Source: Synechococcales cyanobacterium M55_K2018_004
GTDB lineage: Bacteria; Cyanobacteriota; Cyanobacteriia; Elainellales; Elainellaceae
Reading direction: 5' to 3'
Length of the DNA: 60,822 nucleotides
Assembly: GCA_015295905.1 (NCBI GenBank)
Contig: DVEB01000189.1
Span: 1-60,822 of the forward strand
Below are positions 7,287 through 22,077 of the stretch, one piece after another. Numbering within the stretch: the stretch's first letter is position 1; every line of letters begins with the position of its first letter. The notes under the pieces are model-generated. The model was given only the letters and a program-made list of their open reading frames with translations. It was not told where the DNA came from and searched no databases. The position numbers were made by a program, and so were the translations under genes.

Positions 7287-7409
7287 AACGTGACTTCCGG
7301 ATAAGCTGAAAGCCGCGATTTTCCATGCGCGGCACCCATGGAAAACGCGGGGGTTGGGGCGCCGCGCTGTGCACGGTGCCCTAAACCCCCCTCAACCAGA
7401 ATAGACGCT
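7287..7409 (+). repeat. Family A MITE-like element (copy A2)
   Basis: It begins AACGTGACTTCCGGATAAGC and ends CCAGAATAGACGCT. The first hairpin is CGATTTTCCATG/CATGGAAAACG, and the second is GGGGCGCCGCGC paired with GCACGGTGCCC (imperfect). It lies between the convergent tilS and hmpF genes. Its last two bases overlap the hmpF stop codon. Just before it, 7214-7285 holds a decayed family D-like stretch ending GGGCCAGATCAGCAATGCC. Confidence 0.75.
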
Positions 7410-9147
7410 AAGCCACTTTCGACCTGTCCTGCGTCAGGCTGAGGATGGTCTGCCGCATCTCGGCAATCGCCTGAAGTTGATAATCGCTGGCCTCCTGGAA
7501 TTGCCCCATGACGCCAGCGATCGCCTCTAGCTTGTCCTTCAGTCCTCCCAAGTCGTTTTGCATGAGGGCAAGGGTTTCCTGATAGACATTGACCTTACCC
7601 CACTGTTCGCCAGTGGCTGCCTTTTGATTTTGCAACTGCTGTTGCTGCTGTTGCAGGTCATGCCAGCGTGCCTCCTGCTCGCCGCTGCGTTGCTCCACCG
7701 TGGCCTTCAAGGGGGCTATTTGGGATTGCAAGGATTGAATCTGCTCCTGGGTCTTCTGTAATGCCTGAGCTAGATGCTGTCGGGCCGCATCCAATCGATT
7801 CAGCAGAGGGCTAAGGTCAATCACAGGTGCCTGAGGCTCGGCAACAGCAGTTCCCTGACGACGAGCAAGAATAGTTTGGTGGGCCTTAAGGACGGCTTGT
7901 CGTTCGTGGAGACTGCGCCGCTGGCCAATCAGCGTTTCGTTCAGCATACGATACCGATCTTGCTCATCGGCTAGTTCGGCCTCCATCTGCAAACGGTCGT
8001 ATTCGCTGGCTTGTTCGAGCTTTTTCTTCAGTTCGTCAATTTCCTGCTGCTGCAGGGTTAACTCCTCTTCCTGGCCCTCAACAAATCGGGAAACAGAGCT
8101 AAGCTCGTGCTCCATATCGGCCACAATTTTCTGGAGTTCTTCAATGGATTTTTGCTCCAGTGCGCCCATATCCACGCTCACGGGTAAGCCAGAAGCATCC
8201 GCCAAATAGCAGGCTTGCCGATAGACTTCTTGCTGTTGTTGAATCTGATGATTGAGTAACTCAGCATGCTCTTGCTGGACTGCAAGTGCGCTCTGGTGCG
8301 ATCGCAACTCTGCGGTCAACTGTTCTAGTTCAGCCTGCGCCTGCTTCCACTCTTGCCAGCGAGCTTGCAGTTCTCCGGTTTGGTGGCCCACCCCATCCTG
8401 CATCTGTTGAGCAGTGCTTCGTAGTTGCTCCAGGGTTTGATAGCTTTGATCCAAGCTGGCCTGCTGGCGGTTGAGGATTTCAAAGGAGAGATTAAGTTGT
8501 TCGCGGATGGCCTCTGTGGGGGCGATCGCTCCTGAAAGTCGGTTCAGCAATTCTTGCAACTGGTGAGCTTTGCCCTCATCCAACACACTGCCCTGCTGTT
8601 CAGCCTTCTGCTCCTCGAAGCGGTTCATCTCACCCCGCAGGTGTGCCCAGGCTCCCTCCAATTCGCTGCTCTTGCGCTCAAACTCCTCTTTCAAGCGGTT
8701 GAGTTCTGCTCGGCTTTCATCGATCTCTTGCTTTTGTGCCGCCAACCGCTCAAAGTCTTCCTCCATCTGTCGGAGTTGCTCCTCGCGGGCGTCCATCTCG
8801 GCTTGGCGACTGTTTAACTCCTGACTTTGAAAAATGAGCGACTCTTTCCACTGCTCAATTTCCTCTTCCTGGGTTTTAAACTTCTCCTGCAACCGGGAAA
8901 AGTTTTGCAAAATGCTGACCAGTTGCCGCCCTGCCTCGTTGTGACGCTGGATTTGACGACCTGCACTCAACTCAACCATGACCAGCGCCCCAGCATTGTA
9001 GGGCACATCGTCAGGAGCGGGCACAACCTCTTCTCCCGGCACAGCGCTCCAGCTACTTTCAGATCGCTGGCAGGCCAACAGCCGAAACTCTGCCTTACCG
9101 GGTCCAATCACCCCTTTCCGTCTCTGAACTTCCGCTAGATACAGCAC
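7408..9147 (-). CDS. hmpF: Pilus motility taxis protein HmpF (coiled coil)
   Basis: HmpF is the filamentous-cyanobacterial coiled-coil protein needed for type IV pilus-driven gliding; it works with the Hmp chemosensory array at the cell poles. The 579-residue product starts with a conserved globular head (LYLAEVQRRKGVIG.. AEFRLLACQR.. LVMVELSAGRQIQRHNEAGR, about residues 1-85). It continues as nearly uninterrupted Q/E/L-rich heptads to the C-terminus. There is no signal peptide or membrane span. The start is GTG at 9145-9147, giving the family-typical MLYLAEVQ. It diverges from hmpA across 918 bp, which fits joint control. Its TAG stop overlaps the end of repeat A2. Confidence 0.85.
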   Translation of the reverse strand: MLYLAEVQRRKGVIGPGKAEFRLLACQRSESSWSAVPGEEVVPAPDDVPYNAGALVMVELSAGRQIQRHNEAGRQLVSILQNFSRLQEKFKTQEEEIEQWKESLIFQSQELNSRQAEMDAREEQLRQMEEDFERLAAQKQEIDESRAELNRLKEEFERKSSELEGAWAHLRGEMNRFEEQKAEQQGSVLDEGKAHQLQELLNRLSGAIAPTEAIREQLNLSFEILNRQQASLDQSYQTLEQLRSTAQQMQDGVGHQTGELQARWQEWKQAQAELEQLTAELRSHQSALAVQQEHAELLNHQIQQQQEVYRQACYLADASGLPVSVDMGALEQKSIEELQKIVADMEHELSSVSRFVEGQEEELTLQQQEIDELKKKLEQASEYDRLQMEAELADEQDRYRMLNETLIGQRRSLHERQAVLKAHQTILARRQGTAVAEPQAPVIDLSPLLNRLDAARQHLAQALQKTQEQIQSLQSQIAPLKATVEQRSGEQEARWHDLQQQQQQLQNQKAATGEQWGKVNVYQETLALMQNDLGGLKDKLEAIAGVMGQFQEASDYQLQAIAEMRQTILSLTQDRSKVA

Positions 9148-10065: not shown

Positions 10066-11379
10066 ATGCAGGGGAAGTTGAACGAAATTGACATCCGCAG
10101 CATCCTTCAGTTGATTGAGTTGGGTCAACGAACGGGGGAGTTGTTTGTGGAAGCGCATGCCACTCCCTCCAGCGAAGTCGGGAGTGGTCTGGGCCTTGGC
10201 AGCCACCTCCATCGCGTTTGGGGGCGTTCAGCCAAACCCCTGCAAGAGCAGTCATGGTTTGTTTTCTTCTTGAATGGGCAGATCATCTACGCAGGCGATA
10301 CAGGGGGGAATCTGGCTCGTCTGCAAGACTACTTAAAACGCTATAACCTGGAGCAAAGCCTTAGCCCTGCCCAAATTTCTCCGGCGATCGCCACCACCAA
10401 CGCACCAGAATATGGCCACCTCTGGGCCTTGCTAGAACAGCACATCCTCACACCAGCCCAGGGTCGCAGCATCATTCAAGGCATGGTGCAAGAAACCTTG
10501 TTTGACTTGTTAGATCTGCACCAGGGGTCCTTTATTTTTGAGTTGGGAACACCCCTCGCTCCCCAACTGACCACCTTCGAGATCGCTCCACGGGTCACCA
10601 AAGCCATGCAGCAAGTGCAGGCCTGGAAGCAACTGCACCCGCTGATCCAGTCTCCAGAGCAGTGTCCGGCGATCGCCAATCCCACCGCTTTGCGGGAAAA
10701 CCTGCATGCCCGTGCCTTTGCCGCCTTCGAGAAATGGGTTGATGGCAAAACCTCGATCCGTCGCATCGCCCGTTACCTGCACCGCGACATTTTGACAGTC
10801 GCTCGTGCCCTCCTGCCCTATGTGCAACAGGGGCAGGTGCAACTGCTCAACCCTGACCCCCAAGCGACTCGTCCAACCCCCTTGGCCCTAGCCCAGTCCG
10901 ACCGTCCTCCTCGTATCGTCTGTATTGACGATGGGCTGGCAGTCCGTAAGGCCGTTGAAGAGATTCTCAGCAGTCATGGCTATGAAGCCACATCGATCAG
11001 CAACCCGCTGCGGGCACTCAGTCTCGTCTTTCAACTGCACCCCGACCTCATCCTGTGCGACATTTCCATGCCAGAACTGGACGGTTACGAGATTTGTGCC
11101 ATGCTGCGTAAATCCACAGCGTTTCGTCAGACTCCGATTGTCATGCTCACGGGGCGGGACGGCTTCATCGATCGGGTGCGAGCCAGGATGGTCGGCGCCA
11201 CAGACTACCTGACTAAACCCTTTGGCGAAGGAGAACTGCTCACACTGGTGGCCCGCTATGTCGGAGAAGGCAACCCGGAGCACCCCCCGCCTGACCTCCA
11301 ACTAGAGACAGCCGTTGAGGATGAATTCACTCCGCAGACTCCTTCAGAATCATCGACATCTCCCCTTTCATCAGGATGA
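10066..11379 (+). CDS. hmpA: PatA/PixG-like response regulator (PATAN + receiver)
   Basis: This is an output response regulator of the taxis locus. The N-terminal PATAN/DUF4388 domain (about residues 1-115, MQGKLNEIDIRSILQLIELG) is followed by a helical region and a C-terminal CheY-like receiver (about 284-400). The receiver has acidic pocket IDDG, phosphoacceptor aspartate in LILCDISMPELDG, conserved threonine in MLTGRD and lysine in YLTKPF. A short disordered tail ends the 437-residue protein. PATAN receivers bind and regulate type IV pilus motor components in Synechocystis phototaxis; this role is inferred here. It is the first gene of the plus-strand taxis cluster, 130 bp before hmpB. Confidence 0.85.
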   Translation: MQGKLNEIDIRSILQLIELGQRTGELFVEAHATPSSEVGSGLGLGSHLHRVWGRSAKPLQEQSWFVFFLNGQIIYAGDTGGNLARLQDYLKRYNLEQSLSPAQISPAIATTNAPEYGHLWALLEQHILTPAQGRSIIQGMVQETLFDLLDLHQGSFIFELGTPLAPQLTTFEIAPRVTKAMQQVQAWKQLHPLIQSPEQCPAIANPTALRENLHARAFAAFEKWVDGKTSIRRIARYLHRDILTVARALLPYVQQGQVQLLNPDPQATRPTPLALAQSDRPPRIVCIDDGLAVRKAVEEILSSHGYEATSISNPLRALSLVFQLHPDLILCDISMPELDGYEICAMLRKSTAFRQTPIVMLTGRDGFIDRVRARMVGATDYLTKPFGEGELLTLVARYVGEGNPEHPPPDLQLETAVEDEFTPQTPSESSTSPLSSG

Positions 11380-11509: not shown

Positions 11510-11875
11510 ATGAGCAGAGTTCTAGTCGTGGAAGATAGCGTCACTCAACGAGAGATGATTACCGACCTGCTCAAAGGAAGTGGGTTGGATGTAACAGTCG
11601 CAAGTGATGGAGTAGAAGCCTTGGAACAAATTGCAGGCAAATCTCCTGACTTGGTGGTACTGGATATTGTCATGCCCCGCATGAATGGCTACGAAGTTTG
11701 TCGGCAAATTAAGGCAAACCCTAAAACACAAAACATTCCTGTGGTAATGTGCTCCTCAAAAGGGGAAGAATTTGATCGGTATTGGGGGATGAAACAGGGA
11801 GCCGATGCCTATATTGCTAAACCATTTCAACCCACAGAACTGGTGGGTACTGTGAAGCAACTACTGCGAGGATAG
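11510..11875 (+). CDS. hmpB: CheY-like response regulator of the taxis locus
   Basis: A stand-alone receiver of 121 residues (PilH/PixH type) with acidic residues in VVEDS, phosphoacceptor aspartate in LVVLDIVMPRMNGYE, serine in the T/S position (VMCSSKG) and conserved lysine in YIAKPFQP. It probably takes phosphate from the CheA HmpE, either as a diffusible output or as a phosphate sink. ATG at 11510 has an AAGGAA ribosome-binding site just upstream and gives MSRVLVVEDSVTQ. The 130 bases before it are unusually AT-rich (TTAATTTAATCATTAATATAG), so an internal promoter is possible. The CheW gene follows after 10 bases. Confidence 0.92.
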   Translation: MSRVLVVEDSVTQREMITDLLKGSGLDVTVASDGVEALEQIAGKSPDLVVLDIVMPRMNGYEVCRQIKANPKTQNIPVVMCSSKGEEFDRYWGMKQGADAYIAKPFQPTELVGTVKQLLRG

Positions 11876-11885
11876 GTTCAAGATA

Positions 11886-12416
11886 ATGATTGGTAATCCG
11901 GATTTCTTAACAGGTCGAGGGCAAGATCAAGCGCCCGAGTTTCAGGAATTGGACAGTCCTGAAGGTGAGCTTCATTTGCGATTTTACGTCTCCTCAGGAG
12001 ATGAATTTGCCTTACCTGCAACTGGAATCCGTGAGGTCATTTCTCCTTCCCCTGACCGAATTACACCGATTCCCAACGTCTCCCCTCTCTTACTAGGAAC
12101 GCTGAATGTGCGTGGTCGCGTCATCTGGGTTGCAGACTTGGGCCAATTTCTGGGTGACTCAACCCCCCTCAGCACCGATCGCCCTGAAATCTCAGTCATC
12201 GCTGTAGAAGATCAAGACACTATGCTAGGTCTGGCGGTAGACCGAATTGTGGGGATGGAATGGTTAGATGTGGAAGAGGTACAAATGCCATCTAATGTCC
12301 CCGATAGCATGGCTCCATTTCTGCGGGGAGAGTGGTTTTTAAAAGAGGAAAAAGGTCGTTTCTTGAGGCTGCTAGACCAAGTGGCGATTCTCCGCTCCGC
12401 GCGGTGGGCGGCCTAG
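11886..12416 (+). CDS. hmpC: CheW-like coupling protein
   Basis: This 176-residue cytoplasmic adaptor of the CheW/PixI family links the chemoreceptor HmpD to the CheA kinase. After a polar N-terminus of about 25 residues, the fold is visible as LRFYVSSGDEFALPATGIREVI, then TPIPNVSPLLLGTLNVRGRVIWVADLG (about 56-86), the most conserved CheW stretch, then LAVDRIVGMEWLDVEEVQ. ATG at 11886 starts 10 bases after the hmpB stop, so the genes are almost certainly cotranscribed; the receptor gene follows after 58 bases. Confidence 0.92.
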   Translation: MIGNPDFLTGRGQDQAPEFQELDSPEGELHLRFYVSSGDEFALPATGIREVISPSPDRITPIPNVSPLLLGTLNVRGRVIWVADLGQFLGDSTPLSTDRPEISVIAVEDQDTMLGLAVDRIVGMEWLDVEEVQMPSNVPDSMAPFLRGEWFLKEEKGRFLRLLDQVAILRSARWAA

Positions 12417-12474: not shown

Positions 12475-15348
12475 ATGGGCATCGGGACTGAATACGCAAG
12501 CGAATACCAGAAGGCAGAGCGGGCTTACATGCAGGGCAAGTATGAGGAAGCCGCCACGATCATCGATCGGCTTTTGGAGCAACATCCAGATGACCCCAGC
12601 GTGCGACTCCTCTGTGGGCATATCTATTGTTATGGCCTGCAGCAGTATGCGATCGCCCAGGAACAATACCAGCAAGTCCTCCACCTGACGACTGACTCAG
12701 ACTATGTTGACTATGCTAACAACGGCCTCTCTGATGTCCGCCAATACTTGGCAGCCGAGGAAATGAATGGAGAGTCTGCCTTCGCTGACATTGATGGCGA
12801 TTTTGTCAGCACATCAGACACCCCCATGATGTTTGAGGACTCCAGTGCCGCCGCATCCCCAGGAGAACAAGATTTCTCCTTTGAAGACCTCGACCTCAGC
12901 GACTTCAGCGACAACCTAGACGAAGCCACCGGAGACACCTTTGACAACCCCTTCGCCATGCCGGAGGCGAGCTTTGAAGCAACTCCATCGCATGCGTTTG
13001 AGACTCCCCAGGATCCTTTCACAGTCGATCCAGATGCTTCTGCCTACGCCGATCCGTTCGCCATCCCAGATTCATCTCAGGCAAATCCCTTTGCAGTTGA
13101 TGCCGCAGAGATGGAGCGGGTCTTTGACGACAACACCTTTGACGACGACACCTTTGACGATAATACCTTCGACGAGGCCCCCAATCATGGCGCCCTAGCA
13201 GATCATCCTTTCAGCGATGGTGGGCATGGAGAATTGGCGGCAACCGATCATTTGCCAGAACCTCCCTTTGATCTACCAGCAACACCTGCTGCTCCCAATC
13301 GCATCCCTGCCGAGGAAGATACGCTTTTCATGATGCCAGAGGCTGGGTTTGAGGAGGCCAACTTTGCCGCCGCCTTTGATGAGACTGGATACGAGTCTGA
13401 GTACCAGACTTCGCCTCAGTTTGATGAGTTCAACGACATCAACACCACTGACCCTAACTCCGATAGATACCAAGCAGACGGCTTCACAGCCACCAACTTC
13501 AACCCGTCTAACAGTGGTTTTAATCTAGATGACTTTGACGGACTGGCTGACTTTTCCACCAGTGAAGACCCGCGCGTCGCAGTTTCCGGTGGTCAGAGCG
13601 ATTACTTAGACGATGACTTTGAAGGGTTCGACGACCTGGGTAGTCTGCCCGACTTTGATATGGCTGACCATTCGGCGGGCTTTACTAGTCCATCGATGGG
13701 CGGGATGGATTTCGGCTCTACGGGCATGTCTCGCAGTTCCATGACTTCCACCAGTGATATCGGCTTCGACTTCAGTGAAGGAGTTGATCAGTCTGTTATT
13801 AACGAGGACGAGATCTTCAGTATTTCCGGCACTTCTGAGTCGCTGCCACTGTTTACTCAGGCGGAAAGTCGCACCAGTGAACCAGATGTCACCGTAGAAC
13901 AGGGAGCGCTTGCCTTTGTGGAAAATGCGCCCCTCAACACCAAGCAGTTCTGGGTCGCTGGAGCAACGGGTATCCTTTCTGCCCTGATAGTAGCAGCCGT
14001 GAACTTTGGCTTTACCTATCACGCCTCCCGCAATGCGCCGCAAGCTCAACGGGCTGCTGTGGTGGAACATTTACGCACCTCAGGCTGGGTGATGAGTGGA
14101 GCTTCTGGTGTGGTTAGCTTTCTGGCAGCCTACCTGCTGGGGGGAATTGTCACCCGCCAGATCAAGCGGGCAACGACAGACCTGCAAAATCAGTTTGATG
14201 CCGTTTCCCAGGGCAATTTGAGTGCACGTGCAACCGTTTATTCTGAAGACGAATTTGGGCAACTGGCAGCAGGCTTTAACCAAATGGCACGGGTTATCCT
14301 GACCACCACTAGCGAAGCCCAGCGCAAGGCAGAGGAGCAGGAACAGGCAAAAGAAGATTTGCAGCGGCAGGTGATTCGCCTGTTGGACGATGTGGAGGGG
14401 GCCGCCCGCGGTGACTTGACGGTACAAGCCGAGGTCACTGCGGACGTACTCGGTGCCGTCGCTGACTCCTTCAACCTGACTATCCAGAACCTGCGAGAGA
14501 TCGTCCTTCAGGTGAAGGAGGCTGCGCGACAGGTGAGCAAGAGTTCTGCTGAAAACGAGATCTTTGCGCGATCGCTCTCCTCTGATGCCCTCCGTCAGGC
14601 TGAGGAACTAGCGGTGACGCTCAACTCCGTCCAGGTGATGACGGATTCGATTCAGCGGGTAGCCGAAAGCGCCCGCGAAGCAGAAGAGGTGGCTCGTTCT
14701 GCGTCGGCAACGGCCCTGAAGGGAGGTGAAGCAGTTGAACGCACAGTGTCGGGTATTTTAGAAATCCGCGAAACCGTGGCGGAAACCACCCGCAAGGTGA
14801 AGCGTCTGGCGGAGTCTTCCCAGGAAATTTCCAAGATCGTCGCCCTCATCTCCCAGATTGCTTCCCGCACCAACCTGCTGGCCTTGAACGCTAGTATTGA
14901 AGCGGCAAGAGCGGGTGAAGCCGGACGGGGGTTTGCCATTGTGGCGGATGAAGTGCGTCAGTTGGCAGACCGGGCTGCTAAAGCGTCGAAGGAAATCGAA
15001 CAGATCGTCTTACAAATCCAGAGTGAGACGGGTTCTGTGATGACTGCGATGGAGGAAGGCACGCAGCAGGTGATTGAAGGGACGCGACTCGCAGAACAAG
15101 CCAAGCGATCGCTCGAAGACATCATTCAAGTGTCAAACCGCATCGACGTGCTGGTACGCTCCATCACGGCCGACACCGTAGAGCAGACCGAGACCTCCCG
15201 TGCGGTGGCGCAGGTGATGCAGTCCGTCGAGTTGACGGCGCAGGAAACCTCCCAGGAAGCACAGCGCGTCTCTGGCTCCCTGCAAAACCTCGTAGGAGTT
15301 GCACGTGACCTGCTGAACTCCGTCGAACGATTCCGAGTTGAAAAGTAA
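12475..15348 (+). CDS. hmpD: Chemoreceptor (methyl-accepting protein), PilJ/HmpD type, with TPR and acidic N-terminus
   Basis: Receptor of the taxis array, 957 residues. Residues about 10-90 look like tetratricopeptide repeats ([31 protein letters not shown]). About 95-480 form a long acidic, low-complexity linker with repeated PF motifs ([24 protein letters not shown]) and a triplicated DxTFDD. Two membrane helices follow (about 491-515 and 538-560) with only some 22 residues between them, so there is no periplasmic sensor domain. Then come HAMP (about 560-615) and the signalling coiled coil with tip [23 protein letters not shown] 12475 follows AGGAGAAGGC. Without an outside domain, input probably comes from the cytoplasm, the membrane or the pilus. 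Confidence 0.9.
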
Positions 15349-15410
15349 AACGACTTTCTAGGGAACGCTATCCCTAATCCTAAGCCCCACCTATTGAGAG
15401 GAGCACCGTG

Positions 15411-18400
15411 ATGCTGTCGGAACAACAACAACGGATCTTGGGCTACTTCATCGAAGAGGCGAAAGACCACCTGAATACCATCGAGCAGGGATTGTTGAGC
15501 CTCCAGAGCACCATTGAAGACCCAGAGATGGTGAGTGAGGTGTTCCGGGCCGCCCACTCGGTCAAGGGTGGGGCCGCGATGTTGGGCCTCAACAGCATCC
15601 AGCATACTGCCCACCGCCTGGAGGACTACTTCAAAGTCCTGAAGGAATGCACCGTGCGCGTGGACCAAACGTTGGAAACCCACCTCCTGGAAGTGTTTGA
15701 TGCCCTCAAAGAGTTGCTTGAACAACTCCAGGGGCCGTTTGGCCTGACGGAAGATAAAGCGTCAGAGGTGATGGCAGGGGTTGAACCTGTTTTTCAGGCC
15801 CTTAACCAACATCTCGGAGAACTGGTCAGCCAATCGGGCGGCACTCCTCCAGACGATGTCGAGTTGGCTGCGCCAGCGACGGCCACCGTCGGGGCAGAGC
15901 AGCCCACCATCGTGCAGCCAGAACCTGCCGTCGTCGAAGCAAGTGCGCTCCAACTGGTGTTCAAGAGCGATGTTCCAGCGCGCCTACGCGAGATGTTGCA
16001 ACTGTTCAAGCGCCCAGAACAACCCGAAATTCGCCAGCAGCTAGTGTCTCTGTGTGAGTCTTTGGGACGAGCGGGAGAACCGTTTGAACTGAGCAACTGG
16101 GTCAACCTGCTGCACCAAGCACGACGGGTGATTGCCTCCCCCGACCACAGCTTCCGCACCCTGGCTCCCGTTTTGATTAAGGAAATTAAGCAGGCGCAAG
16201 AACTGGTGCTGGCAGGGCGAGAGACTGAGATTTCTCCTAGCGAGACGTTGCGATCGCTGCTTCCGGCTGAACCCAACGTCTCAGAGGCTGACCTAGCAAC
16301 AGATGCTGACTTGGCGGATCTGTTTGGCGGAGGCCTAGAGGAACCTGCTCTGCTAGATCTGTCCCTATTGGAACAGGGCGATCGCATAGATGCAACTGAA
16401 GCCGCCGATGTGTTTCAAACCTCAGTGGACGAATTGACGGTGGTCGATCAAAGCACCTTTGTCCAGGCCGAGGCTGACGGGCTAGACTTCGACAATCTCT
16501 TCTCGGCGGCCTCAGCCCAAGATGAAACCGCAGCGGCTGATCTGGGCTTCCTCAGCGGTTGGGATGAAGTCCCGTCTTTTGAGGAGGATCTCCGCAACGG
16601 CCCAGAAGTAGGAATGGCAGAACTCAACAGTCTCGCGGATCTGTTTGAGGGGGAAATGCCCGACTTGGGTTTGAGCTGGCAGGAAGAAGAAATCCTCTTT
16701 GAAGCGTCAGATGAACCCACCGAAGGACCTGACCTCCAAGTTGCAAACGATTTTTCAGACCTGTTTTTTGAATCTGACTTGGCTGATGCCTCTGTCCTTG
16801 AGGATGCCACACCCGATGATGAAGACCTGTCGGGCTTGTTTAACCAGGTTGAACAACTGACCGGAGGCACTGACCTTGCCCCCACGACCTTTGCCGATGA
16901 TGATGACCTGGCCGATCTGGATGCAGAGTTTCTGGGAGCGCTGCCAGAAATTCCGGTAGAAGCGCCAGATCCTGACGAGTTCGCCCAATTTTTTGCCACC
17001 CCGTCTGGTGAAGAGCCTGTGGTTGCACCGTTTGAGGCTGCTGACCCAGCAGACTTCGCCCAGTTCTTTGGGGAACCACCTACCAGTCCCGCAGCAGACG
17101 CCGCTGCCGTATCCGCCATTCCTGCTCCCGATGGTGAGAATTTTTCAGGAGTTGGGATGGAAGACTTACCAGGTGTGACCGACGCGGAAGACCAGTTTAG
17201 TCACCTGGGTGAGTTCTTCGCTGAGCTGGATGAAGCAGAACTGGTTGCCACTGAAGACTCAGACGGCCTTGACGCAGAAGTAGCAGAACTAGAAGCCTTG
17301 GAAGTGCCAGACTCCATGACTTCAGCAGAAGGGGCGATCGCCAGTTTCGACCCCACGGTTGATATTGTTTCCTCCTTTGGTTTTGAGGAAGACTTAGACG
17401 AACAGGATAGGCTCTCCCTGGCAGACTCCTCGTTCCTCAGTCAGGCTGGGCAGGATACTGCTGCACCGGAAGACTCATCGCCTGAACGCTTTGCTGCAGA
17501 AGCAATCGATCCGGCAATAGGGGCTGATGCCTCCCCCCCGGAACCCGCTCCAGCAGAGGCTCCTCCGGTGACCTGGATGGATGCGCTCGACTCGGACGCT
17601 GGGCTGGCCAGTATGGAACCTGCACCTGCCCAGTGGGACACTCCCGCAAATCTGCCAGATGATGTCACCTCAGACCTCTGGGCCGATGCCAGCGAGTCTA
17701 CCTTCGACCTGCTGGATCTGGAACCCGACCAGACGGAAAATCTGGTTGATCTGGTGGGGCTAGTGGCGCCAGAGGAAACTCAGACCGATGATACCGATGA
17801 TGCTAATCGCTCCTACGATGCTGTTTCATCTACCACCGCATCGCCAGAAGCACCCACGGACGATTTCTTTGCAGGAAATGACAGCCCATCTGCCGCTGAG
17901 TCCCTGTCGTCAACCCAGGACATCGAGGATTTGCTGGGCATCGGCCGCGAATCGGACTCAACCTCTGATTATTTCAGTGGGTTGGAGTCTGGGGATGCCC
18001 CATCTTCCGCAGCGAACCTCACCCTGGAGAATGAAGCAGACTTTGAGTCTTCCTTTGAAATCAGCGACTCCTTTGAAGGCAGCGGTTCCTTTGAAAGCAC
18101 TGCTGACCTTGATGTAGCCTCCGATGAGCAAGCTGCGCTTGAGACAGAATCAGTTCTGGATCAACTGGATGCACTCTTGGGTGAAACAGAATCCCTAGAT
18201 CCGGGAGGAGAAACGGCAGACCTAACAGCAGCCAGCCTGGATGAGTTGGATGCCTTGCTGGGGCAAGTGGATGAAGACGTGACAGATATGGCACTGGCTA
18301 CCGGTGCAGCCACGTTCGATGAGCCATCCTCGGTGGCTGCTGCACCAGATTTTGAAAACCTGGAAAGCCTTCTGAGCGACGACCTATCCGATCTTGACGA

Positions 18401-20690
18401 GCCTCCCCTCGTGCTCGAACCCGAAGCATCGATATCAGACGATTTCCTGGACCTGGAATCAATGCTGGCCGAAGCAGAAGTGACTGAGGCTGCCCCCCCT
18501 TCCTCGGTTGAGCAGCTCCCACCAGCAGATGACTTTTCCGACCTGGAGGCATTACTGGAAAATCAACCGACGGCTAGCTCGCCTACCGATTCTGCAACGA
18601 CGGAAGCACTCGCCAGTGATGATGAATTTGATGACTTGGAGCGGTTGCTAGAGAATGCTGACCAGACGCTCGGTGGCACACCCACCAGTCGGATCAATCG
18701 TGGCCCTGCAACCCAGGGGCGTCGTCCCTCCCGTCCGGGAGTGCTGACGGATCAGACCATGCGAGTCTCGGTCAAGAACCTAGACAACCTCAACAACCTA
18801 GTGGGGGAACTAGTGGTTAACCGCAACAGCCTGGAGCAGGCTGAGGAGCGGCTGCGGCAATTCCTGGATAACCTGCTCTACCAGGTGCAGCAACTCAGCG
18901 ATGTGGGGCAGCGGATGCGGGATCTATACGAGCGATCGCTGTTGGAAAGTTCTCTGCTCTCTAGCCGCCGGACCTACCAGGTGGCGACAAACGGCGTGCC
19001 CAGTGCTGCCCAAACCCATGCTACAGGGATGAGCTTCGACGCCCTAGAGATGGATCGCTTCACGGGCTTCCATACGCTCTCTCAGGAGATGATCGAACTG
19101 ATCGTGCGAGTGCGGGAGTCGGCCTCTGACATCGACTTTGTGGTGGATGAGACAGATCAGATTACGCGCAACTTCCGCCAGATCACGACCCAACTCCAAG
19201 AGGGGCTGACCCGTTCTCGCATGGTGCCCTTTGCCCAGACTGCCGACCGACTGCCGCGGGCTGTCCGCGATATTTCGCTGCGCTGTGGCAAGCAGGCAGA
19301 ACTCACCATCGAGGGGCGCGAGACGCTGATCGACAAGATGATTCTGGAACAGCTCTATGACCCCATGACTCACCTGGTCAACAATGCCATTACCCACGGC
19401 ATTGAGACTCCCGAAGAAAGGGTGGCCCTGGGTAAACCACCAGTGGGTAAGATCACAGTCCGTACCTTCCACCAAGGCAACCAGACGGTGATCTCCGTCA
19501 TGGATGACGGCGCTGGAATTGACCCTGAACGAGTGAAGGCAAAGGCGCTGGAAAAGGGGCTGATCACGCCGGAAGAAGCCAAAACCATGTCGCGGCTCGA
19601 TGTGTACGACCTGCTGTTCCACCACGGCTTTAGTACCCGCGATCGCGCCGATGACTTTGCTGGACGCGGCGTGGGCATGGACGTAGTACGCACCAGCCTG
19701 AACGAGATTCGGGGGTCTATCAGTATTGATTCTGCCGTGGGTCGAGGCACCACCTTCACTATCCGGCTTCCCCTTACCCTGAGTATCTCGAAGGCGCTCT
19801 GCTGCATCAGTAATCGGGCGCGCATCGCCTTCCCCATGGATGGGGTTGAGGATATGCTAGACATCCCGCGCGATCGCATCCAGACGATGGAAGACGGTCG
19901 CTCCTGCATTCAGTGGCACGACACCATTTTGCCTTTCCAGCACCTCTCTGACCTCCTGAAACACAACCGCAGCCTAGGGCGTGGCAGCGTCTACGGGGGG
20001 AATCAGGAGGATGACATCGTTTCTGTGGTGGTGCTGCGGAGCAATGCAGGCAGCTTCCTCGCACTCCAGGTGGACCAAGTGTTGGGCGAGCAGGAGATTG
20101 TGATTAAACAACTAGAAGGCCCTGTGCCCAAGCCGATTGGAATTGCTGGTGCCACCGTCCTAGGGGATGGTCGCATCATGCCGATCGCCGATGTGCTGGA
20201 ACTGATTGACCTGTCCATGGGTCGCCTCCGTCGCGAATCGGGTAGCGCTCTGTGGGACAAGGGCGAAGAGGTTCCTGTAGAACCCATCGAGACCAAGAGC
20301 GAACCAACCGTGCTCATCGTAGACGACTCCATCACGGTGCGCGAACTCCTCTCGATGTCCTTCAACAAGGTGGGATATCGCGTAGAACAGGCCCGCGATG
20401 GCCAGGAAGCCTGGGAGAAACTACGTTCTGGTCTGCCCTGCGACTTGGTCTTCTGCGACATCGAGATGCCACGTATGGATGGTCTGGAACTGCTCTCGCG
20501 GATGCAGAAAGATCCCCATCTTAACCATCTGCCCATCGCCATGCTGACCTCGCGCGGTGCAGACCGTCATCGTCAGATGGCCATCCAGCTCGGGGCAAAG
20601 GGCTACTTTACCAAGCCCTACCTAGAGGAAGCTCTGCTAGATGCAGCACAACGGATGCTGAAGGGCGAAGTGCTGGTCAGTTCGAGTTGA
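15411..20690 (+). CDS. hmpE: CheA-type hybrid histidine kinase, PilL/HmpE type, with giant acidic linker
   Basis: Central kinase of the taxis system, 1759 residues. HPt is N-terminal, with histidine about 49 in AAHSVKGGA. A helical domain (about 180-290) follows. Then comes a strongly acidic linker of about 800 residues (about 300-1110) with recurring DLxxLF and DLExLLE-like motifs. The dimerisation and ATPase core (about 1115-1470) has N-box DPMTHLVNNAITHGIE and DDGAGI and GRGVGMDVVR motifs. A CheW-like domain (about 1480-1615) and a C-terminal receiver (about 1630-1755, aspartate in LVFCDIEMPRMDG) complete it. ATG 15411 follows GAGGAG; in-frame GTG at 15408 is an alternative. The next gene begins 7 bases after its stop. 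Confidence 0.93.
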   Translation: MLSEQQQRILGYFIEEAKDHLNTIEQGLLSLQSTIEDPEMVSEVFRAAHSVKGGAAMLGLNSIQHTAHRLEDYFKVLKECTVRVDQTLETHLLEVFDALKELLEQLQGPFGLTEDKASEVMAGVEPVFQALNQHLGELVSQSGGTPPDDVELAAPATATVGAEQPTIVQPEPAVVEASALQLVFKSDVPARLREMLQLFKRPEQPEIRQQLVSLCESLGRAGEPFELSNWVNLLHQARRVIASPDHSFRTLAPVLIKEIKQAQELVLAGRETEISPSETLRSLLPAEPNVSEADLATDADLADLFGGGLEEPALLDLSLLEQGDRIDATEAADVFQTSVDELTVVDQSTFVQAEADGLDFDNLFSAASAQDETAAADLGFLSGWDEVPSFEEDLRNGPEVGMAELNSLADLFEGEMPDLGLSWQEEEILFEASDEPTEGPDLQVANDFSDLFFESDLADASVLEDATPDDEDLSGLFNQVEQLTGGTDLAPTTFADDDDLADLDAEFLGALPEIPVEAPDPDEFAQFFATPSGEEPVVAPFEAADPADFAQFFGEPPTSPAADAAAVSAIPAPDGENFSGVGMEDLPGVTDAEDQFSHLGEFFAELDEAELVATEDSDGLDAEVAELEALEVPDSMTSAEGAIASFDPTVDIVSSFGFEEDLDEQDRLSLADSSFLSQAGQDTAAPEDSSPERFAAEAIDPAIGADASPPEPAPAEAPPVTWMDALDSDAGLASMEPAPAQWDTPANLPDDVTSDLWADASESTFDLLDLEPDQTENLVDLVGLVAPEETQTDDTDDANRSYDAVSSTTASPEAPTDDFFAGNDSPSAAESLSSTQDIEDLLGIGRESDSTSDYFSGLESGDAPSSAANLTLENEADFESSFEISDSFEGSGSFESTADLDVASDEQAALETESVLDQLDALLGETESLDPGGETADLTAASLDELDALLGQVDEDVTDMALATGAATFDEPSSVAAAPDFENLESLLSDDLSDLDEPPLVLEPEASISDDFLDLESMLAEAEVTEAAPPSSVEQLPPADDFSDLEALLENQPTASSPTDSATTEALASDDEFDDLERLLENADQTLGGTPTSRINRGPATQGRRPSRPGVLTDQTMRVSVKNLDNLNNLVGELVVNRNSLEQAEERLRQFLDNLLYQVQQLSDVGQRMRDLYERSLLESSLLSSRRTYQVATNGVPSAAQTHATGMSFDALEMDRFTGFHTLSQEMIELIVRVRESASDIDFVVDETDQITRNFRQITTQLQEGLTRSRMVPFAQTADRLPRAVRDISLRCGKQAELTIEGRETLIDKMILEQLYDPMTHLVNNAITHGIETPEERVALGKPPVGKITVRTFHQGNQTVISVMDDGAGIDPERVKAKALEKGLITPEEAKTMSRLDVYDLLFHHGFSTRDRADDFAGRGVGMDVVRTSLNEIRGSISIDSAVGRGTTFTIRLPLTLSISKALCCISNRARIAFPMDGVEDMLDIPRDRIQTMEDGRSCIQWHDTILPFQHLSDLLKHNRSLGRGSVYGGNQEDDIVSVVVLRSNAGSFLALQVDQVLGEQEIVIKQLEGPVPKPIGIAGATVLGDGRIMPIADVLELIDLSMGRLRRESGSALWDKGEEVPVEPIETKSEPTVLIVDDSITVRELLSMSFNKVGYRVEQARDGQEAWEKLRSGLPCDLVFCDIEMPRMDGLELLSRMQKDPHLNHLPIAMLTSRGADRHRQMAIQLGAKGYFTKPYLEEALLDAAQRMLKGEVLVSSS

Positions 20691-20697
20691 GTCCTCT

Positions 20698-22077
20698 ATG
20701 TTTCAGGCCACCCGTCAACGGCTAGCACTCTGGTACACGACGGTCACCGCAATTCTGCTGCTGTTGTTTGCGAGTGGGTTTTACCTCTACGTCCGCTCGA
20801 CGCTGATCGAGCGGATTGATGATACTCTCAGTCATGTGGTGGAGGTAGTGGGGCGATCGCTCGTCATTGAACCGGCCCCTGCCACCTCCGATAGCCCCCC
20901 GCGGCTGAACTTGGATGCCAGCTTTCGCGATAATGCAGAATCCGTTGAAGACGACCACATCGATCTGGAATGGTTTGATGCCAACGGCAACCTAGTTTGG
21001 TCTACCTTCTCCGCTCCCCTGGATGTGCCGTTACACCCCAACAGTGATGGCGAGACGGTGGAGGCTCACTTCCAGGGAACTAGCACTCTGGCCGTAGACT
21101 CACCTAACTACCAGCCTCCCGACAGCTTCACCCTGCGGCAGGTGACCCAACGTGTTGAGGTGGGAGGGCAGGTGTTGGGCTACCTGCGGGTGAGTCATCC
21201 CTGGTTTGAGGTGACCAAGCCCACTCGTCAACTGATCCGCGATCTGGCGCTAGGGACTGTTCTTATGGTGGCAGCAGTGGCCGCAATTGGGTGGTTCTTG
21301 TCAGGACTGGCGATCGCCCCGGTGCGCGACTCCTATCAGCGACTCAAACAGTTTACTGCCGATGCTTCCCACGAGCTGCGAAACCCGATTGCCGTGATCC
21401 AAACCAATGTGCAGGTCGCCCTAGAAGACCCCGACCCCGACCCTCAAGTCCAGCGAGACCAACTCCGGCTGGTGGAACGGCTGACGCGTCGGTTGGGGCG
21501 CCTCGTGGATGACCTGCTCTTCCTAGCACGGCAAGACAGCGGCATGATCCAAATGCAGAGCGATCGCCTCGACCTCAAAGAACTCCTAACCGAGGTGGTG
21601 GAAGAGCAGGCTGCGATTGCCCTCGACCGCAATCAACACCTCTCGCTCACGGTGGACGAGGACTGTCAGTCCTTTGCAGTTATGGGCGATCGTGACCAAC
21701 TGACACGCCTGTTCACCAATTTGATCAGCAATGCCCTGCAATATACCCCAGCCGATGGACAGATCCGAGTGACGCTGCATCGGCTCAAGCAGTCGGGCCA
21801 CACTGCTTTTCAAGTGCGCGTGCAGGACACAGGCATCGGCATCCCCGAAGAGTCCCTCCCCTACCTATTTGACCGCTTCTACCGGGTTGACCCTGCCCGC
21901 ACCCACGCAGGAGCAATCAACAGCAAGTCCGCTGTCACGGGATCGGGGTTGGGGTTGGCGATTGCCAAGGTGATCACCGAAAACCACCAGGGGACAATCC
22001 AGGTGGAAAGCACCACTGGCCAAGGGACAACTCTGATCGTGACTCTGCCTGTAACGCGGCCAGAAGGCAGCGGGTAG
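20698..22077 (+). CDS. Membrane sensor histidine kinase linked to the taxis operon
   Basis: A classical HisKA sensor kinase of 459 residues. TM1 is about residues 14-30. An extracytoplasmic domain of about 145 residues follows, then TM2 (about 180-203), a short HAMP-like stretch, HisKA with FTADASHELRNPIAVIQT (H-box), and a HATPase domain (N-box LISNALQYTP; DTGIGIP; GSGLGLAIAKVI). It starts 7 bases after hmpE, so it is most likely the last gene of the taxis transcript. No partner OmpR-type regulator lies beside it. It may feed a signal into the taxis system or act on a regulator elsewhere; the sequence does not decide. Confidence 0.88.
   Translation: MFQATRQRLALWYTTVTAILLLLFASGFYLYVRSTLIERIDDTLSHVVEVVGRSLVIEPAPATSDSPPRLNLDASFRDNAESVEDDHIDLEWFDANGNLVWSTFSAPLDVPLHPNSDGETVEAHFQGTSTLAVDSPNYQPPDSFTLRQVTQRVEVGGQVLGYLRVSHPWFEVTKPTRQLIRDLALGTVLMVAAVAAIGWFLSGLAIAPVRDSYQRLKQFTADASHELRNPIAVIQTNVQVALEDPDPDPQVQRDQLRLVERLTRRLGRLVDDLLFLARQDSGMIQMQSDRLDLKELLTEVVEEQAAIALDRNQHLSLTVDEDCQSFAVMGDRDQLTRLFTNLISNALQYTPADGQIRVTLHRLKQSGHTAFQVRVQDTGIGIPEESLPYLFDRFYRVDPARTHAGAINSKSAVTGSGLGLAIAKVITENHQGTIQVESTTGQGTTLIVTLPVTRPEGSG

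Follow-up and report, generated by a model that had tools for sequence, protein, structure and literature searches.

In many cyanobacteria an HmpE/PilL-type CheA directs pilus-driven movement. The acidic linker of the one in Synechococcales cyanobacterium M55_K2018_004 ends, as comparison with its relatives shows, in a conserved array of short hydrophobic motifs adjoining the kinase core. The chances are about even that this linker serves as a docking tether, whose array catches a pathway partner beside the kinase, most likely HmpA/PilG, in place of the P2 domain. The gene lies in a stretch of 60,822 nucleotides (hereafter the window; Table 1) and encodes the sole CheA of its own genome. A Pfam scan placed HPt at residues 10-108, H-kinase_dim at 1116-1172, HATPase at 1320-1457, CheW at 1464-1601 and REC at 1635-1747; the HPt carries HSxKG, and P3-P4-P5 and a C-terminal REC are present, which is the make-up of an HmpE/PilL-type kinase. 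The kinase core is 59-88% identical to orthologues and 36-41% identical to the paralogues used. The surrounding gene order, a divergent HmpF-like gene and then PATAN-REC, CheY, CheW, MCP and CheA, matches the reference hmp locus (Npun_R5959/F5960-F5964) tabulated previously (PMC10581220). The known counterparts are HmpE of Nostoc punctiforme and PilL (Hik36-Hik43, tax3) of Synechocystis, the likeness being that of an orthologous kinase in an operon of divergent hmpF and hmpA-E.

Table 1. Features of the hmp locus and of the HmpE linker in the window (positions are those of the whole stretch)
Feature	Positions	Strand	Remarks
HmpF-like coiled-coil protein, divergent	7408..9147	-	assigned from gene order, which is as in Npun_R5959/F5960-F5964
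HmpA/PilG, PATAN (DUF4388) + REC	10066..11379	+	proposed main partner; genome's only PATAN protein
HmpB/PilH, CheY-like receiver	11513..11875	+	domain scan
HmpC, CheW	11886..12416	+	domain scan
HmpD, MCP	12475..15348	+	cytoplasmic N-terminal TPR and own acidic linker
HmpE/PilL-type CheA	15408..20690	+	1760 aa, GTG start; HPt, helical d2, acidic linker, P3-P4-P5, REC
d2, conserved four-helix bundle, residues 176-275	15933..16232	+	possibly HPt-like fold, without phospho-His; AlphaFold2 pLDDT 93-98
Acidic disordered linker, residues ~276-1105	16233..18722 (approx.)	+	831 aa
DADLADLF, first hydrophobic motif past d2	16302..16325	+	loosely conserved; variants in many orthologues; AlphaFold2 helix 293-307
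LDFDNLFS, lineage-specific	16482..16505	+	AlphaFold2 helix 361-370
Block 1, GPEVGMAELNSLADLFEGEMPDLGLSWQEEE	16599..16691	+	single near-universal motif; AlphaFold2 helix 403-414
Block 2, NDFSDLFF (consensus DFSDLLF)	16746..16769	+	usually 38-51 aa past block 1
Block 3, DEDLSGLFN	16818..16844	+	partly conserved
EFAQFF, DFAQFF, LGEFF motifs	16974..17228	+	not conserved
Array copy 1, VLDQLDALLG	18153..18182	+
Array copy 2, SLDELDALLG	18234..18263	+	closest to FliM EIDALL
Array copy 3, DFENLESLLS	18348..18377	+
Array copy 4, DFLDLESMLA	18441..18470	+	AlphaFold2 helix
Array copy 5, DFSDLEALLE	18531..18560	+	AlphaFold2 helix
Array copy 6, DEFDDLERLLENADQTLGG	18621..18677	+	near-universal last copy; ~33 aa ahead of kinase; AlphaFold2 helix

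A sequence-only reading of the window had described an acidic linker of about 800 residues in this CheA, bearing two sets of evenly spaced motifs and taken as a whole for a docking array, possibly for several receivers or pilus-pole partners, that replaces P2. The linker was found as described, with 26% D+E and 1.4% K+R (0.259 and 0.014), a negative FoldIndex over its full length and predicted disorder; all of the quoted motifs are present, and no P2 family was recognised between the HPt and the kinase core (Pfam scan, E 0.01). The array itself is confined to the last ~200 residues: the last motif set is a genuine array, while the first-half motifs form only a few distinct conserved blocks. 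Within the last 190 linker residues there are six copies of F/L-x-x-L-[DE]-x-L-L, 27-38 aa apart (residues 917, 944, 982, 1013, 1043 and 1074), so that the even spacing holds as a rough regularity, with gaps of 27, 38, 31, 30 and 31 aa, and not exactly. The six copies are the sole matches above 6 bits to the motif matrix in all frames of the window, in which the motif occurs 6 times against 0.11 in shuffles, and six of the top seven profile matches in the organism's own genome fall in HmpE. The copies are alike in protein and not in DNA; recent duplication of the DNA was rejected because no tandem repeat was found over the array and the same codon is used at 44% of shared residues, against 34% expected.

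Among relatives, 164 copies yield the consensus D-[DE]-F-x-D-L-[DE]-x-L-L. The strict motif occurs 119 times in 46 orthologous linkers against 1.2 in shuffles and in none of 15 paralogous CheAs, and 114 non-redundant linkers from cyanobacteria hold 328 instances of the core F..[LIM][DE].[LIM][LIM], where shuffles give 5.7; since such counts share descent and are not independent, the claim of an array rests on how the array region differs from shuffled sequence, from the remainder of its own linker and from paralogues. At least one core copy lies in the last 450 aa of 110 of the 114 linkers, and in linkers of at least 500 aa nearly all core copies (298/304) fall in the 250 aa adjoining the kinase. 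The last copy lies at a median of 31 aa from the start of the kinase core (IQR 29-33) and the second at 68.5 aa in the same 114 linkers, the gap between copies has a median of 31 aa (IQR 27-38), and the number of core copies per linker varies from 0 to 6 by that pattern. The motifs are thus conserved, and it is not merely the length and charge of the linker that homologues retain. In 60 relatives the array profile matches HmpE almost alone, and most of the isolated matches elsewhere belong to folded proteins, PBP1a and SbcC among them; a hub motif common to many proteins was rejected on this ground.

Of the first-half motifs, LADLF is the centre of a block of ~30 residues (block 1), GPEVGxAELN[ST]LADLFEGExPxLxxxWQEEE, which is present in 92 of 115 non-redundant HmpE proteins, those without it being mostly truncated, split or very distant. 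The block 1 profile recovers the present protein with E 1.9e-23 and matches almost HmpE alone. FSDLF (block 2) is conserved in position in 75 of these 92 proteins against 2.0 expected, and DLSGLF (block 3) in 42 of 92 against 0.9. FDNLF, EFAQFF, DFAQFF and LGEFF showed no conservation of position among orthologues, and motifs of the [DE]FxxFF type number 17 against 6.9 expected in 46 linkers; DLADLF, FDNLF, EFAQFF, DFAQFF and LGEFF are at best kept loosely or in particular lineages.

Structure prediction agrees with a disordered tail in which short helices coincide with the motifs. In an AlphaFold2 model of residues 1001-1760 (41 homologues) the linker tail has a pLDDT of ~30-36, and its helices 14-21, 44-50 and 74-88 (model numbering) correspond exactly to copies 4, 5 and 6. 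In a second model (residues 1-438, 42 homologues) the HPt and d2 are confident, and linker helices lie at DLADLF (293-307), FDNLF (361-370) and block 1 (403-414, pLDDT 76), and a further short helix spans 318-323. The most plausible reading of such conserved short helices, set in disorder that is itself conserved, is that they are docking motifs. Between P1 and P3, all that is folded is predicted to be helical. HPt proteins head the structural look-up for d2 with Z up to 10.5, which is below the caution level of ~13 for helical bundles; no conserved, phospho-accepting His was found in d2 among relatives, and Cys216 is kept in 95%. One divergent locus, L043, gave two blast matches to d2.

The preferred explanation is that the array motifs, (D/E)-F-x-D-L-(D/E)-x-L-L, would be disordered when free and fold into short amphipathic helices once bound, capturing beside the kinase a pathway partner that is most likely the PATAN-receiver response regulator HmpA/PilG. 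The array would thereby take over the role of the absent P2 by keeping the receiver locally concentrated for the HPt to phosphorylate, and block 1 (GPEVG..LADLF..W.EE) may be a second, different docking site. Docking of a partner is suggested because it is the kinase, and not the HPt, from which the array stays at a constant distance, and because the array follows the kinase half where the gene is split: in the Chroococcales type the array copies remain on the kinase half, with a last copy of the DEFKDLE[AK]LLE type. Several split kinase halves also hold a block-1-like segment, and where the split kinase half measures 1096 aa, 276 aa of it form the disordered tail. HmpE-type kinase halves without an HPt (split pilL) occur in L168, L171, L175, L182, L185-L188, L190 and L205; in L168, L171, L175 and L182 a further receiver-like match lies directly past the end of the kinase, so that some carry two RECs.

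Published two-hybrid data on Hik43 (PilL-C), the kinase half of Synechocystis, also argue for docking of a partner. Hik43 binds Rre6/PilG (HmpA) and Hik36; it still binds both after loss of its C-terminal 614 aa and binds neither after loss of its N-terminal 360 aa (Kera et al. 2020, PMC7656254), the piece that would hold the array region. The purpose of the contact with Rre6 was left open there. No binding to Rre7/PilH (HmpB) was seen (PMC7656254), which speaks against the earlier idea that several receivers dock on the linker. By our analysis, the 360-aa piece probably comprises the disordered tail and part of the dimerisation domain; because the deletion took the dimerisation domain too, the site may lie in that domain, and for the same reason we only infer that the array replaces P2. 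Likewise, we infer that binding occurs at the motifs themselves, chiefly with HmpA as ligand, and that phosphotransfer is affected. Co-occurrence did not single out HmpB as an obvious partner either: genomes with short linkers are without a close HmpB and/or HmpA, yet L043 has both and no strict motif, and divergence confounds the comparison.

A receiver as the ligand is further suggested by the likeness of the array core to the FliM/FliY peptide EIDALL, whose binding site is the alpha4/alpha5 groove of CheY (PMC9126983). Both are short acidic amphipathic helices with the core [ED]-[IL]-D-A-L-L, as compared by eye and by pattern, and [DEQ][IL][DE]ALL occurs 131 times against 1.8 expected in 114 linkers, with ELDALL as copy 2 of the window. 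HmpE differs in having several copies, in an extra Phe three residues ahead of the conserved Leu and in its placement inside CheA, unlike the N-terminus of FliM/FliY in the flagellar switch. The Hmp receivers keep Y106, K109, F111 and L116 of the FliM face of CheY and have K91, K92, I95 and K119 changed (4 of ~10 kept), and because only part of this face is retained a FliM-like binding mode is not assured; a PDB profile search with the array motif gave no match. The region shares with the CheY-docking P2 of CheA its place between HPt and dimerisation domain and its proposed job; however, P2 is one folded domain, and HmpE has a possibly HPt-like bundle and a disordered motif array instead, with no P2 family detected. 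CheZ-type phosphatase helices have the form DxxxQ, with Gln four residues past the catalytic Asp. Such a helix was rejected for the array, since the Gln position is Leu, Met or Ile in 98% of copies. In domain layout, CheA3 of Rhodobacter sphaeroides also has a P1 followed by a long non-canonical region before P5, and it is reported to act as a phosphatase toward CheY6 (PMC6829392); unlike HmpE, it is without a kinase core, which is on CheA4.

A bolder and distinctly tentative extension is that a disordered arm with a variable number of FliM-like receiver-binding helices replaced P2, and that the peptide with which the kinase captures its response regulator is of the type used by the flagellar switch for output, copy number tuning the capture; the tail of an FHA-cyclase (F.DLD.FL) could be a competitor for this receiver and so tie the pathway to cAMP. 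Motility of Synechocystis depends on cAMP and cya1 (PMC7656254). An FHA-class III cyclase of the same genome (L063:1080-2060, contig C127) has the extreme C-terminus FADLDALLSQTTG, and an F.DLD.FL-like tail is kept in its orthologues (30 checked). A partner common to this tail and HmpE is conceivable, and the tail may be merely the end of the fold.

The rival to which we give most weight, although we rate it clearly below docking of HmpA, is that the array docks a non-receiver, either the N-terminal TPR of HmpD or the separate HPt half, and holds together kinase and receptor or the two kinase halves. Binding of short acidic peptides is a classical trait of TPRs, and the HmpD TPR is present in 100 of 101 loci. 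The two loci lacking strict motif B (L043 and L044) have the most diverged TPRs, leaving aside the fragmentary L159, which was excluded from the comparison for want of a usable HmpE linker or HmpD N-terminus; this co-occurrence is suggestive, but the kinases of L043 and L044 also rank with the most diverged, and the association may simply reflect divergence. The N-terminal piece of Hik43 is required for binding of Hik36, the HPt half, as well (PMC7656254).

Somewhat less probable is an action in cis, with the motifs holding HmpE inhibited or ordered, mainly through the last copy, by binding to its C-terminal REC or to the kinase core. The near exclusiveness of the motifs to HmpE and the fixed position of the last copy (IQR 29-33 aa) despite variable copy number would fit this, but a lock would not need tandem copies, and AlphaFold2 with 41 homologues gave no confident docked state, the motifs being placed confidently neither on the kinase nor on its own REC (pTM 0.39). 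It is unlikely that the linker is a sticker-and-spacer region through which HmpE clusters at the pilus poles by weak multivalent contacts, with no defined ligand per motif: its length, acidity and many short hydrophobic motifs, and tandem-repeat expansion in some relatives, such as L022, L034 and L039, are in keeping with such a region, but the strict consensus, the fixed last copy and the unique block 1 argue for specific recognition. That the motifs are a chance by-product of an acidic, Leu/Phe-rich linker is highly improbable. Composition alone favours such words, and loose patterns are enriched just ~2-fold (523 vs 264), but the strict and core motifs far exceed their shuffles and are located at one end. 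Chance is ruled out for blocks 1 and 2 and for the last motif set; it may hold for EFAQFF, DFAQFF, LGEFF and FDNLF.

The array and block 1 provide short candidate sites for receiver and HPt docking, and they offer a possible account of the published, unexplained contact between Hik43 and PilG. They also suggest that, in bacterial kinases, arrayed short linear motifs may stand in for a folded docking domain. HmpE-type CheA was present in 228 of 291 Cyanobacteriia genomes sampled (kinases were counted, not motifs). The open papers searched did not describe these linker motifs; subscription papers may mention them earlier.

Several minor observations were made on the same proteins and locus. The HmpE linkers of some relatives (L022, L034, L039 and L003) contain long recent tandem expansions, for example ELDFGLDLTEEPES, SPSLEDDFFAEEAIAS and DLDAFNLDAEAEPESQETADED, in proteins of up to about 2700 aa. 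HmpD has repeats and F/L motifs in its own acidic linker, ahead of the membrane segment. Long antisense ORFs over the CheA gene (15794-16387, 16448-17119 and 19044-20542, all on the minus strand) are probably a by-product of codon composition. Moreover, a membrane histidine kinase (HisKA and HATPase; 20698-22077, plus strand) starts 8 bases past HmpE and may be co-transcribed with it.
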